DNA from: a virus
Direction: 5' to 3' (one strand)
DNA length: 26,972 nt
IMG/VR virus record: IMGVR_UViG_3300023192_001830
Span: 1-26,972 of that record
Part shown: in pieces, positions 6,555 through 12,548 of the stretch
How positions within the stretch are numbered: position 1 is the first letter of the stretch
How the letters are laid out: every line of letters starts with the position of its first letter
Position numbers and translations under genes: made by a program
Notes under the pieces: generated by a model
Seen by the model: only the letters and a program-made list of their open reading frames with translations
What the model was told of the DNA's origin: nothing
Database searches by the model: none

Positions 6555-6906
6555 ATTAATTTTTGATTCATTACCTACTCAATCAGTGCCAATACTGGAA
6601 ACGAGAAGTGGCATATATTTTTTATATGATGGCAAAGAGGTGGTTTATGTAGGGAAAAGTAATAACATAATATTTAGGGTACATACTCATAAATACGGAA
6701 AATTACATACCGGTATTAAAAAGTGCTTTACTCGTGCGAAAAGTAAAGAATATCCGAACTATGATGATTTTATGCTATCAGTGATAGAGAACAGGTGGAT
6801 TAAAAGACTCACTCCTAAATATAATTTACAGGGAAATCCGAGATATATTTATAATCAAAAAAAGAAATGTTATGAAACAGCAACACCACACACCAAAGTA
6901 AGGTAA
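6541..6906 (+). CDS. GIY-YIG endonuclease, small free-standing
   Basis: This 121-residue protein has all the core GIY-YIG elements: GIYFL (24-28), YVGKS (36-40), Arg46, catalytic Glu83 in VIENRWIK, and PKYN (92-95). The domain fills most of the protein, with a short basic tail and no obvious DNA-binding module. This looks more like the single-domain phage and UvrC-type nucleases than a long homing enzyme. It is AT-rich and follows RusA with a 14-base overlap. Homing, DNA repair or degradation of competitor DNA are all possible. The last three codons run into the 11-bp repeats that start the origin-like region. Confidence 0.88.
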   Translation: MISVKLIFDSLPTQSVPILETRSGIYFLYDGKEVVYVGKSNNIIFRVHTHKYGKLHTGIKKCFTRAKSKEYPNYDDFMLSVIENRWIKRLTPKYNLQGNPRYIYNQKKKCYETATPHTKVR

Positions 6907-6929
6907 AGGTAAGGTAAAGGTAAGGTAAG
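6898..6929 (+). repeat. three tandem 11-bp repeats (GTAAGGTAAAG)
   Basis: GTAAGGTAAAG occurs at 6898-6908 and 6909-6919, with a third copy at 6920-6929 lacking one A. These short purine-rich direct repeats directly precede the larger AT-rich repeats and probably belong to the same origin or control element. Confidence 0.8.
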
Positions 6930-6964
6930 TAGGACAGTGATTAAATGATTATACAACACATTAT

Positions 6965-7148
6965 ACGACGACAAGAGCAAAACCTATTATACAAGTTATA
7001 TAATCCATTATATAACCCATTCCACGACGACAAGAGCAGAACATATTATAAAAGTTATATAATCAAATTATATAACCCATTTCACGACGACAAAAGTAGA
7101 ACATATTATAAAAGTTATATAATCAAATTATATAACCCATTATATAAC
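6965..7148 (+). repeat. iteron array of about 60-bp units, probable replication origin
   Basis: Three units begin ACGACGACAA at 6965, 7024 and 7084, with spacings of 59 and 60 bases. Lines 7021-7080 and 7081-7140 differ at only three positions. Each unit contains GTTATATAAT followed by its complement ATTATATAAC, separated by CC in unit 1 and CAA in units 2 and 3 (palindromes at 6995-7016, 7054-7076, 7114-7136). A seventh half-site is at 7139-7148. The array ends five bases before the ribosome binding site of a probable initiator gene. AT-rich iterons beside an initiator gene are the classic arrangement of phage and plasmid origins. Confidence 0.75.
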
Positions 7149-7165
7149 TCATAAGGAGGCAGCAA

Positions 7166-8140
7166 ATGGCACGCAGAAGAATGATTGATCCTGGACTGTG
7201 GGCATCCGGGCATAATACTAAACTTATATACAGGCAGCGACTGTTGTTCATTGGATTAATATCAAACGCAGATGACGAAGGAAGAATAAAAGGAAATCCA
7301 AACTACATCAGAGCAGTTGTGTTTCCGTACGATGATATACCCGGAAATGAGATATTAGACGATCTGAATTTATTAGAATCTGAAAAAATGATCTCACAAT
7401 ATCTGGTGGAAGATGTGCGTTATATCCAATTATCAAAATGGAAAGACTTCCAAACGATCAACAGACCACAGCTATCCAAGATTCCATCAGCTATTGACGA
7501 CAAAGTGAACAGTTCAATGAACGAATCAGTGTATGAATCAATGACCAATTCACGACTAAGAGAAGTTAAAGGAATTAAAAAAGAAAATACACAAAAGAAA
7601 AAAAATGTGGTGGTGTATAATTTTGAAAATCATAATAAAGAAGTTCCATTTGTGATTGCTTTTTGGAAACAATGGGTTAATCCTAATTCACAGGAAGCCA
7701 TAGCTGGAAGTCCTACACCAACAGAAAAAAAACAAATCATGGACTATGCGTTTGCTTACAGTCAGGACATTGAGTTTTGGAAGCCGTATCTTGGGACTCG
7801 ATTAATCCGCATACAGAATGGGGATTTTCATCATAGCAGCATCAAGGCGTTCGCCGGGGGTGGGTTCAGAGATTATGACCCGGAAAAACCTAAAAAAGGC
7901 AAAGAGCCTATCACCAGGAAGTACGATAAAACAGTCACAGGCTATTACAAGGCTTACTGCTCAAAATGCGGGAAGATGGAATTACCGCCTGGGAAGTTTC
8001 AGCTTTACGAAGGATCAACGTGCTGCAAGGTAGATTATACTCCTGTAAAACCAAAAGAATCACCCGGCAAGCCGCACAAAGTATTTACGCCTGACACCCG
8101 GTCAGAATCAACGCAATCCCTGGCGGATATACTGCCTTGA
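7166..8140 (+). CDS. probable replication initiator / replisome organiser
   Basis: This 324-residue protein opens with ARRRMIDPGLWAS, followed by LIYRQRLLFIGLISNADDEGRI and a compact helical region to about residue 110. That opening is typical of phage replication proteins with an N-terminal winged-helix DNA-binding domain. A linker rich in Ser, Lys and Asn (about 115-150) leads to a second domain (FWKQWVNP, FWKPYLGTRLIRIQNGDF). A zinc-binding-like cluster (Cys265, Cys268, Cys286, Cys287) comes near the end. AAGGAGG (7153-7159) is six bases before the ATG. It sits directly downstream of the iteron array, which it probably binds. No helicase or primase motif is present, so it would load host or other phage proteins. 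Confidence 0.7.
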   Translation: MARRRMIDPGLWASGHNTKLIYRQRLLFIGLISNADDEGRIKGNPNYIRAVVFPYDDIPGNEILDDLNLLESEKMISQYLVEDVRYIQLSKWKDFQTINRPQLSKIPSAIDDKVNSSMNESVYESMTNSRLREVKGIKKENTQKKKNVVVYNFENHNKEVPFVIAFWKQWVNPNSQEAIAGSPTPTEKKQIMDYAFAYSQDIEFWKPYLGTRLIRIQNGDFHHSSIKAFAGGGFRDYDPEKPKKGKEPITRKYDKTVTGYYKAYCSKCGKMELPPGKFQLYEGSTCCKVDYTPVKPKESPGKPHKVFTPDTRSESTQSLADILP

Positions 8141-8355: not shown

Positions 8356-8492
8356 GATCAGCAGCCCGGAAACCATAGGGGCATAAACCCCAGAGCAAAT
8401 TGGATCTATTCCGTGCGATTACTACCCATTCCGCACAATTACGACAATCCAAAACAATTTGACTTTTACATTTTTAGCTAACAGATTCCAGC
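8356..8492. promoter_or_regulatory. structured non-coding gap between replication and packaging modules
   Basis: The gap contains a GGGG-CATAAA-CCCC hairpin (8378-8391) and a nested inverted repeat. The outer pair is TTGGAT (8400-8405) with ATCCAA (8447-8452), and the inner pair is GTGCG (8413-8417) with CGCAC (8432-8436). TTGACT (8459-8464) is a good -35 hexamer, but the expected -10 (CAGATT, 8482-8487) is weak. Phage packaging start sites and late promoters are often found close to the small terminase gene, so this is a candidate for either. Confidence 0.4.
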
Positions 8493-8651
8493 ATGGATTC
8501 CGTAACCATCATCATCGTCCAGTCGTTAGTTGTGGTGATTGCATCGTTAGCCGGAGCGCACATCTACCGCAGAGGAACGAATAATCAATCCGTTTTTGAA
8601 ATCCCGCCTAAAATACCGTCTGAAAAGTTGGATGAATCATGGGAAAATTAG
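8493..8651 (+). CDS. 52-residue N-terminally anchored membrane protein
   Basis: ATG 8493 to TAG 8651. The first 24 residues contain a long hydrophobic stretch (VTIIIVQSLVVVIASLAGAH), followed by YRRG, so the positively charged flank would stay in the cytoplasm. The tail is polar and proline-rich (FEIPPKIPSEKLDESWEN). There is no clear ribosome binding site. Spacing to the terminase gene is short. It resembles small membrane proteins scattered in phage genomes; function unknown. Confidence 0.5.
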   Translation: MDSVTIIIVQSLVVVIASLAGAHIYRRGTNNQSVFEIPPKIPSEKLDESWEN

Positions 8652-8667
8652 ATATTAGGATGTACGG

Positions 8668-9098: not shown

Positions 9099-10517
9099 AT
9101 GTATGATGTTCAGCCCCAGGTGGCAGAAGATTCATCTATTGAGCAGTGGATACCTCATGCGGGCAAACAGACGGAAATACTTAAACGCAGAGAGTTCGAG
9201 TGTCTATTTGGCGGATCACGTGGCGGCGGCAAAACAGATGCTGGATTAGTCTGGCTGGTAGCACCGGAATATTACAAACATCCCAAGTACAAAGGCTTGG
9301 TGGTGCGGCGCAATGCAGATGACCTGTCTGACTGGATCGCCAGAGCCAGAGCCTTTTATCATCCGTTAGGGGCTACATTTGCCGGTAAAACTCCGATCAT
9401 TAAGCTGCCGGCGGGTGGATTCATCAAAACAGGTCATTTGAAGGATGAAAATGCCTACACCAAGTACCAGGGGCATGAGTACCAGAAGATTCTCATTGAA
9501 GAACTCACTCAAATACCCAGGGAAGAAGATTATTTGAAACTGATCTCATCATGCAGATCAACAGTCCCGGAGTTAAAGCCACAGATATTATCGACCACAA
9601 ACCCTGGCGGTGCGGGTCATGTGTGGGTTAAGCAGCGGTTTGTGGATGTAGCCAAAGATAAAACGCATTACGACAAGGTCTCCGGCAGATCAAGAATATT
9701 TATTCCAGCCCGGATCGAAGATAACCCAACCTTGATGGACAACGATCCCGGGTATGTTAAATTCCTGGAGTCGCTGCCCAATGATTTAAGAAAAGCCTGG
9801 CGGGATGGTGATTGGGATATCTTTGCCGGACAGTATTTCAAGAAGCTGCGGAAGTCCATTCACCTGTGCGAACCGTTTGTAATTCCCAGATCATGGACAA
9901 AGTTCAGATCGTTGGACTGGGGATACGGTCACAACACGGTCTGCTTGTGGTGGGCTGTGGATCACAATTCACCCTCCAATGCGTATATATACCGCCGGTA
10001 CATCCAGAATGAGACAGTTGTAAGCGAAATGGCGCAGAACATACTGGATATGACCCCGAAGAATGAACAGATACAGACGACAGCATCCGATCCGGCAATA
10101 TGGGTGAAGAATCCCTACTCGGAAGCACCGACGGATAAAACGATGGCAGATGTGATCAGGACGGTAGGATTACACATTGAAAAAGCCAATAACAACCGTA
10201 TTAACGGCTGGCAAGCCTTGCGGGAACTGTTAGAGTGGAGCGATGAGAAGCCAAGCCCCAGGCTACATATATTTGAAACCTGCGAGGATGTGTTTGATGG
10301 GTTGAGCGTATTAGTCCACAATGAGAAAAAGCCGGAAGATGTTTTAAAGGTGGGCGGGGACGACATTGGTGATTGTGCAAGGTATGGGGCAATGCACCTG
10401 TATGCTGCATTAGCACCGGAGAAAGATAAGTCGAAGGAAGATAAATTTATAGAATCAATAGTAACAGATCAGATATTTGCCGGTGAACCGGATAACTCAA
10501 CATGGGATAATGTCTAA
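9099..10517 (+). CDS. terminase large subunit (packaging ATPase-nuclease)
   Basis: The product is about 472 residues. Walker A is GGSRGGGKT (about residues 38-46), Walker B is KILIEE with the catalytic glutamate (130-135), and the coupling motif is STTNPGG (165-171). The C-terminal RNase H-like nuclease shows its acidic residues in FRSLDWGYG, ASDPAIW and GGDDIGDCARYG. The complex translocates DNA into the prohead and cuts it. An upstream in-frame ATG at 9063 would add a hydrophobic 12-residue leader (NWLLTIVVVSV), unlike terminases, and its GGAGG is only one base away. The 9099 ATG is therefore preferred, though not proven. The stop overlaps the portal ATG. Confidence 0.95.
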   Translation: MYDVQPQVAEDSSIEQWIPHAGKQTEILKRREFECLFGGSRGGGKTDAGLVWLVAPEYYKHPKYKGLVVRRNADDLSDWIARARAFYHPLGATFAGKTPIIKLPAGGFIKTGHLKDENAYTKYQGHEYQKILIEELTQIPREEDYLKLISSCRSTVPELKPQILSTTNPGGAGHVWVKQRFVDVAKDKTHYDKVSGRSRIFIPARIEDNPTLMDNDPGYVKFLESLPNDLRKAWRDGDWDIFAGQYFKKLRKSIHLCEPFVIPRSWTKFRSLDWGYGHNTVCLWWAVDHNSPSNAYIYRRYIQNETVVSEMAQNILDMTPKNEQIQTTASDPAIWVKNPYSEAPTDKTMADVIRTVGLHIEKANNNRINGWQALRELLEWSDEKPSPRLHIFETCEDVFDGLSVLVHNEKKPEDVLKVGGDDIGDCARYGAMHLYAALAPEKDKSKEDKFIESIVTDQIFAGEPDNSTWDNV

Positions 10518-12250: not shown

Positions 12251-12299
12251 TTCAACGAATTATTATCTACTTAAAAAAATTACATACAGTTAGATCAAT

Positions 12300-12318
12300 A
12301 CCGGATGATTTTACCGGT
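12300..12318 (+). other. small hairpin in portal-scaffold gap
   Basis: ACCGG and CCGGT flank a nine-base loop (ATGATTTTA). There is no T-run, so it is not a terminator by itself. It is the first of several inverted repeats in this gap. Confidence 0.4.
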
Positions 12319-12341
12319 AAGATTCTAATAAACTGCCAATT

Positions 12342-12388
12342 AGGCTATGTTAATAATATCGTGATATCGGAGAGTATTAAAATAGCCT
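12342..12388 (+). other. long AT-rich hairpin in portal-scaffold gap
   Basis: AGGCTAT (12342-12348) pairs with ATAGCCT (12382-12388). TTAATA (12350-12355) pairs with TATTAA (12375-12380). ATATC (12356-12360) pairs with GATAT (12363-12367). The three nested stems leave one seven-base bulge (12368-12374), giving an extended hairpin that is unlikely by chance. It may be part of a non-coding RNA or a processing signal. Confidence 0.5.
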
Positions 12389-12446
12389 GAATTAGACCCA
12401 GATTTGATTAAACCGACCTAAAACCCGGGGAAATCGGAAAAACCGA

Positions 12447-12494
12447 AGCCCTGGACACTCTTTTCAAAGCGAGAGGAGCGTTCAGGGCTTTTTT
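12447..12494 (+). terminator. Rho-independent terminator before scaffold gene
   Basis: AGCCCTG (12447-12453) pairs with CAGGGCT (12483-12489). A second small stem, CTCT/AGAG, lies in the loop region, and six T residues follow (12489-12494). This should stop or attenuate + strand transcription coming from the portal gene, so the head genes may have their own promoter just downstream or be read through when antitermination is active. Confidence 0.75.
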
Positions 12495-12510
12495 AATGTC
12501 AATAACCAGT

Positions 12511-12528
12511 GTCAATCACATGATTGAC
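12511..12528. promoter_or_regulatory. inverted repeat upstream of scaffold gene
   Basis: GTCAATC and GATTGAC are perfect complements separated by ACAT, 20 bases before the scaffold start. It could be a protein-binding site or an mRNA hairpin controlling scaffold translation. Confidence 0.4.
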
Positions 12529-12548
12529 CAACTGAAATGAGGACACAC

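Follow-up and report, generated by a model that had tools for sequence, protein, structure and literature searches.

A predicted lambda-type origin inside the initiator gene of a tailed phage, with a phage-specific palindromic array upstream

The locus

The window analysed here is the entire IMG/VR record IMGVR_UViG_3300023192_001830, a linear stretch of 26,972 bases from a tailed phage that is probably an incomplete genome. Its genes include RecE/RecT, RusA, terminase, portal and capsid. A gap of 259 bases, filled by repeats, separates a GIY-YIG gene (stop at 6906) from a plus-strand gene (7166-8140) for a probable replication initiation protein of 324 aa. Other long intergenic gaps in the window lie at 8356-8667 (312 bases) and 12251-12536 (286 bases). 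Cumulative GC skew rises near-continuously along this partial genome, which codes on one strand, and has no minimum. A 23-kb contig (L011, IMGVR_UViG_3300022693_000699) encodes a terminase protein identical to that of the window and probably comes from the same phage. This contig begins at the terminase, so the repeats before the initiator gene fall outside it, and it is long enough to pass the end of the window.

Structure of the upstream array

The main array (6948-7150) comprises 3.3 copies of a 60-bp unit and holds seven TTATATAA cores and three dyads of 10+10 bp. Tandem Repeats Finder reported it at 6948-7142 with a period of 60, 3.3 copies and a score of 306, and every other array in the window scored 62 or less. 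Exact copies of GTTATATAAT start at 6995, 7054 and 7114, and exact copies of ATTATATAAC at 7007, 7067, 7127 and 7139; no further exact copy of either was found across all 26,972 bases. First-order shuffling of the array sequence gives a mean chance expectation of 0.016 such sites. With three GTTATATAAT and four ATTATATAAC sites, far above chance, the palindromic repeat array that the initial annotation described before this gene is real.

Unit 1 (6948-7006, 59 bp) opens with degenerate copies of the site (ATTATACAAC at 6948, ATTATACGAC at 6960 and ATTATACAAG at 6986) and has a dyad half-site at its end. Units 2 (7007-7066) and 3 (7067-7126) are each 60 bp long and differ from one another at three positions. 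Aligned as direct repeats, the three 60-nt copies are 87-95% identical and start 59 and then 60 bases apart, in agreement with the earlier description of a first unit of 59 bases. The dyad spacers are also as previously described, with CC in the first dyad (GTTATATAAT-CC-ATTATATAAC, 6995-7016) and CAA in the other two (GTTATATAAT-CAA-ATTATATAAC, 7054-7076 and 7114-7136). A seventh half-site, ATTATATAAC at 7139-7148, keeps the same 12-bp step. The two arms of each dyad had been called a half-site and its exact complement. The sites are as stated, but the core TTATATAA reads the same on both strands. Each half-site is thus a palindrome in its own right, with an orientation set by a single flanking base per side; the complementarity rests on those flanking bases, which weakens the view of inverted half-sites.

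A distinct short repeat precedes the array at 6898-6930 on the plus strand and starts within the last bases of the GIY-YIG gene, which it overlaps. It was described as three copies of the 11-bp direct repeat GTAAGGTAAAG; those at 6898 and 6909 are exact, but the third is inexact and agrees in the first nine bases only. At its other end the array adjoins the initiator gene's ribosome binding site, as the initial annotation had it (AAGGAGG, 7153-7159, plus strand; ATG at 7166).

An open frame for 69 aa runs through the array on the plus strand (6945-7154), with a stop that overlaps this ribosome binding site. We think it highly unlikely that the array is coding sequence for a repetitive small protein. 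No stop codon interrupts the frame along the array, its end is 11 bp from the ATG, relatives are also tightly packed here (the median gap before their initiator genes is 7.5 bases), and units 2 and 3 differ at third codon positions only (three of three differences). However, three third-position changes have a chance of about 4%, no good ribosome binding site precedes the start, and the protein matches no family or phage protein. The 59-bp first unit also shifts the frame, which means that the DNA repeat does not give a repeat in the protein.

The initiator protein

The gene at 7166-8140 probably encodes a replication initiator. Its product was said to have the N-terminus of a phage replication protein, and residues 1 to about 140 indeed match PHROG 1408, 16167 and 2149 (E values of 1e-18 to 2e-20). 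The match to these families fails over the whole length, with only residues 1 to about 140 aligning. Members of the three families are found in Pseudomonas phage F10, Escherichia phage HK639 and Streptomyces phage Ididsumtinwong, and they share with the window the N-terminal domain, a gene start reading MARxRxIxP and in-gene repeats just past the domain, whereas the C-terminus of the window protein is another module and the upstream array is found only in the window.

Residues 1 to about 110 are predicted to form a winged-helix DNA-binding domain. An AlphaFold2 model made with 40 relatives confidently places a winged helix at residues 10-95 (mean pLDDT 84), and Foldseek retrieved general winged-helix proteins, including 4pt7 (titled 'initiator'), with E values of about 0.01-0.03 and all above 0.006. 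A sequence search of solved structures with the initiator gave no real match. Near the C-terminus, residues ~236-299 (window 7871-8062) carry a Cys motif (CSKCGK...CC). The same kind of C-terminus is common to the initiators of phages with related terminases (L178-L181), which have a different, DnaD/O-like N-terminus. Because this C-terminus occurs in initiators with unrelated N-terminal domains, the window protein is modular, and as judged from sequence the shared Cys motif is a case of domain shuffling. With the whole initiator as query we found no close homologues in viral contigs and therefore used alignments of the N-terminus instead.

Repeats inside the initiator genes of relatives

We gathered ~170 relatives by their N-terminal domain, drawing on phages with annotation, viral contigs and bacterial genomes, and compared zones of 83 non-redundant genes for short-period repeats, with z > 2 taken as significant. 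Around the initiator genes of the first 87 relatives scanned, the window richest in repeats was mostly in-gene, between +250 and +550. Within the statistics set, 81% of the 83 genes had significant short-period repeats in the zone from +294 to +468 (67% at z > 3), compared with 1% from -175 to 0, 7% from -350 to -175 and 5% in the zone of the DNA-binding domain.

The period of the in-gene repeats is mostly 10, 11, 12 or 15 bp. They are short near-palindromes that differ in sequence from group to group (e.g. TTCAATGAA, TCACTGA, TTCGCGAA, TTCGACGAA and TGTCAGACA). Where the step is 11 bp (e.g. L101, L103 and L185), the sites occupy all three reading frames, which places the constraint on the DNA and not on the encoded peptide. 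After the repeats there is usually a purine-rich tract, and the purine maximum of the family falls in the same zone. The predicted rule for the family (L091-L265) is a set of clade-specific short palindromes that lie ~310-420 bases into the gene, mostly in 10-12 bp steps, and are followed by a purine tract. Such a rule could let pairs of initiator and site be predicted for many uncultured phages. In one relative, L117, an 11-bp repeat occurs at least 12 times inside the initiator gene.

The closest relatives by N-terminus identity are L182 (64%), L098 (53%) and L184 (46%). All three show the arrangement seen in the window, with 12-bp palindromic repeats that include a terminal half-site, plus an A/G tract; the upstream array is in none of them.

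Predicted in-gene sites of the window

The initiator gene of the window has a corresponding cluster at 7512-7558, where predicted initiator sites follow each other in 12-bp steps (GTTCAATGAAC at 7512, AATCAGTGTAT at 7524 and AATCAATGACC at 7536) and end in a terminal half-site (ATTCACGACTA at 7548). An A/G-rich tract on the plus strand (7556-7607; 79% A+T, 81% purine) is a candidate unwinding element. We scanned the 27 kb with a TTCANTGAA matrix trained on nine relatives, the window excluded. The best four-site cluster in the window was at 7500-7546 with a score of 26.1, while 200 shuffled genomes gave no more than 19.6, and across both strands of 1.32 Mb of DNA from control phages 0 clusters reached 26.1 and the maximum was 20.6. 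That top control match is at L017:10512, on a terminase-related contig in which no initiator relative was detected.

Three sites of the cluster are good matrix matches (7512, 7524 and 7536), and AGTTCAATGAACGAATCAGTGTATGAATCAATGACCAATTCACGACTAAGAG in the window aligns by eye with L184 and L098. Compared with L098, L182 or L184, the window has less perfect in-gene sites; two of the four deviate from the consensus, and the periodicity test is weak there (z about 2). A three-site matrix match of similar score inside the terminase gene, at 9491, is apparently due to chance. Under the same matrix, the upstream array gave a single weak match.

Comparison with the lambda origin

The layout of the predicted window origin resembles that of lambda ori. 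In lambda, ori iterons 1-4 (NC_001416, 39034-39118) lie at +348 to +432 of O, and the window sites lie at +346 to +392 of their gene. Two features of the lambda-type architecture are present in the window, namely dyad sites in the gene after the DNA-binding domain and an adjoining AT-rich tract; in lambda, too, inverted-repeat sites lie in the initiator gene past the DNA-binding domain and are followed by an AT-rich tract (PMC7466680). A further likeness is that a lambda-O-like C-terminus occurs in some of the window protein's relatives (L184). The window sites differ from those of lambda in being shorter (9-11 bp in 12-bp steps) and of other sequence, and lambda has no TTATATAA array before O. 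On membership of the lambda O family by descent the evidence points both ways: comparison of the N-terminal domains of the window protein and lambda O gave an hhalign probability of 0.1%, yet both match PHROG 5810 (4e-7 and 1e-13, respectively).

The lambda iterons are all inverted repeats and O is dimeric (PMC7466680), O dimers bind the iterons (PMC5043065), and lambda is the textbook case of such sites. The suggestion that iterons which are palindromes bound by dimers are unusual is therefore wrong.

We consider it very probable, from the layout of the gene and its relatives, that a lambda-type origin lies inside gene 7166-8140. The N-terminal winged helix would bind the near-palindromic TTCANTGAA-type sites at 7512-7558 in 12-bp steps, and because these in-gene sites are palindromic, binding by a dimer is probable. 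The adjoining A/G-rich, AT-rich tract (7556-7607) would then open for helicase loading, as at lambda ori (PMC7466680, PMC5043065). The predicted origin thereby shifts from the eye-catching upstream array to a less obvious cluster in the gene. An origin of the in-gene type is already known from lambda, and it is the array that is private to this phage. The initiator could be phage-specific with altered specificity, a point against placing the origin within the gene.

Searches for counterparts of the upstream array

Read as an iteron origin, as the initial annotation proposed, the array would be expected beside the same gene in related phages, and it was found in 0 of ~170 relatives. In the 270 bases that precede the start, the window has a repeat-pair score of 137, and all other genes among the 170 reach at most 4. 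Among the ~170 relatives compared, the array is an extra element found only in this phage.

Searches in phages, plasmids and viral contigs retrieved no convincing DNA relative of the array. By blastn, phages gave a single 33-base match (E 0.07) and plasmids zero. The exact dyads occurred at seven places in viral contigs, all unrelated; a pattern search for the architecture returned 72 AT-rich places, none with a 60-bp unit; and the spacer of the array gave zero matches. The array was not found in 41 related contigs, in a search that had no positive control, and phages with the same terminase have neither the initiator N-terminus found here nor the array. A literature search on the half-sites brought up only unrelated sequence strings.

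We also considered known signals. The transcript of the array folds better than its shuffles (z -2.5), which would hold for palindromic arrays in general, and Rfam returned no match above threshold; an RNA element was thus rejected. Near the array there was no exact DnaA box, and beside it no good sigma-70 promoter, the promoter scan giving fewer sites than shuffled sequence.

Role of the upstream array

An origin in the array itself, or an enhancer half of a two-part origin with an initiator dimer bound to the palindromic units, is in our view unlikely. Initiators of iteron replicons often bind sites before their own gene too, which counts in its favour. The array is AT-rich and directly 5' of the initiator gene, its multi-copy dyads are unique in the record, and the in-gene sites are weaker here than in L098, L182 or L184. 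On the other side, the repeats of the relatives are in-gene and the window keeps this family-typical cluster; the array occurs in no relative, and the motif learned from the relatives is missing from it. These results do not support the earlier proposal of an iteron origin at the array.

We put the chance that the array is an operator for the initiator gene at about even. A precedent comes from paired TTATATAA cores beside Cro/CI-type genes at L285:646-706, L333:6116-6183 and L337:90-150, which are candidate operators of phage repressors. As in the window, these pairs lie between or before phage genes, there regulator genes; they differ in spacing and copy number, lack the 60-bp unit and neighbour a regulator and not an initiator, and their operator function is itself putative. 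Under the operator reading, the array would be a multi-site operator, placed after the GIY-YIG gene and ahead of the initiator's ribosome binding site, and a dimeric repressor or activator on each TTATATAA dyad would set transcription of the initiator gene. No regulator able to bind the array was identified among the genes of this incomplete genome. Taken as one reading, a lambda-type origin in the gene together with a separate array that is most likely an operator is the account we moderately favour. The array is in any case a phage-specific putative binding array.

We regard an origin switch as improbable. The in-gene iterons would be decaying, and the new 60-bp palindromic array, bound by the initiator or by a different dimeric protein, would serve as a second or replacement origin. 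If a switch were true, a single genome would show how phage origins and initiator specificity jump.

There is only a slim chance that the array is a recent tandem duplication without function. Units 2 and 3 are 95% identical including the spacer, and the array is restricted to one phage, as such a duplication would be; but all seven cores are intact although units 1 and 2 diverge elsewhere, and the additional half-site falls in the same 12-bp step.

A centromere-like partition site is a similarly slight prospect. It would have a parallel in a TTATATAA array of the contig L335, which lies between an actin-like (ParM-type) gene with its small partner and a probable replication gene. However, no ParA, ParM or ParR was found among the window genes scanned, and the window array is unlike that of L335 in geometry and context. 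The L335 array itself (L335:8354-8440) consists of two clusters of three TTATATAA repeats between the actin-like operon and the probable replication gene, and looks like a partition or origin site.
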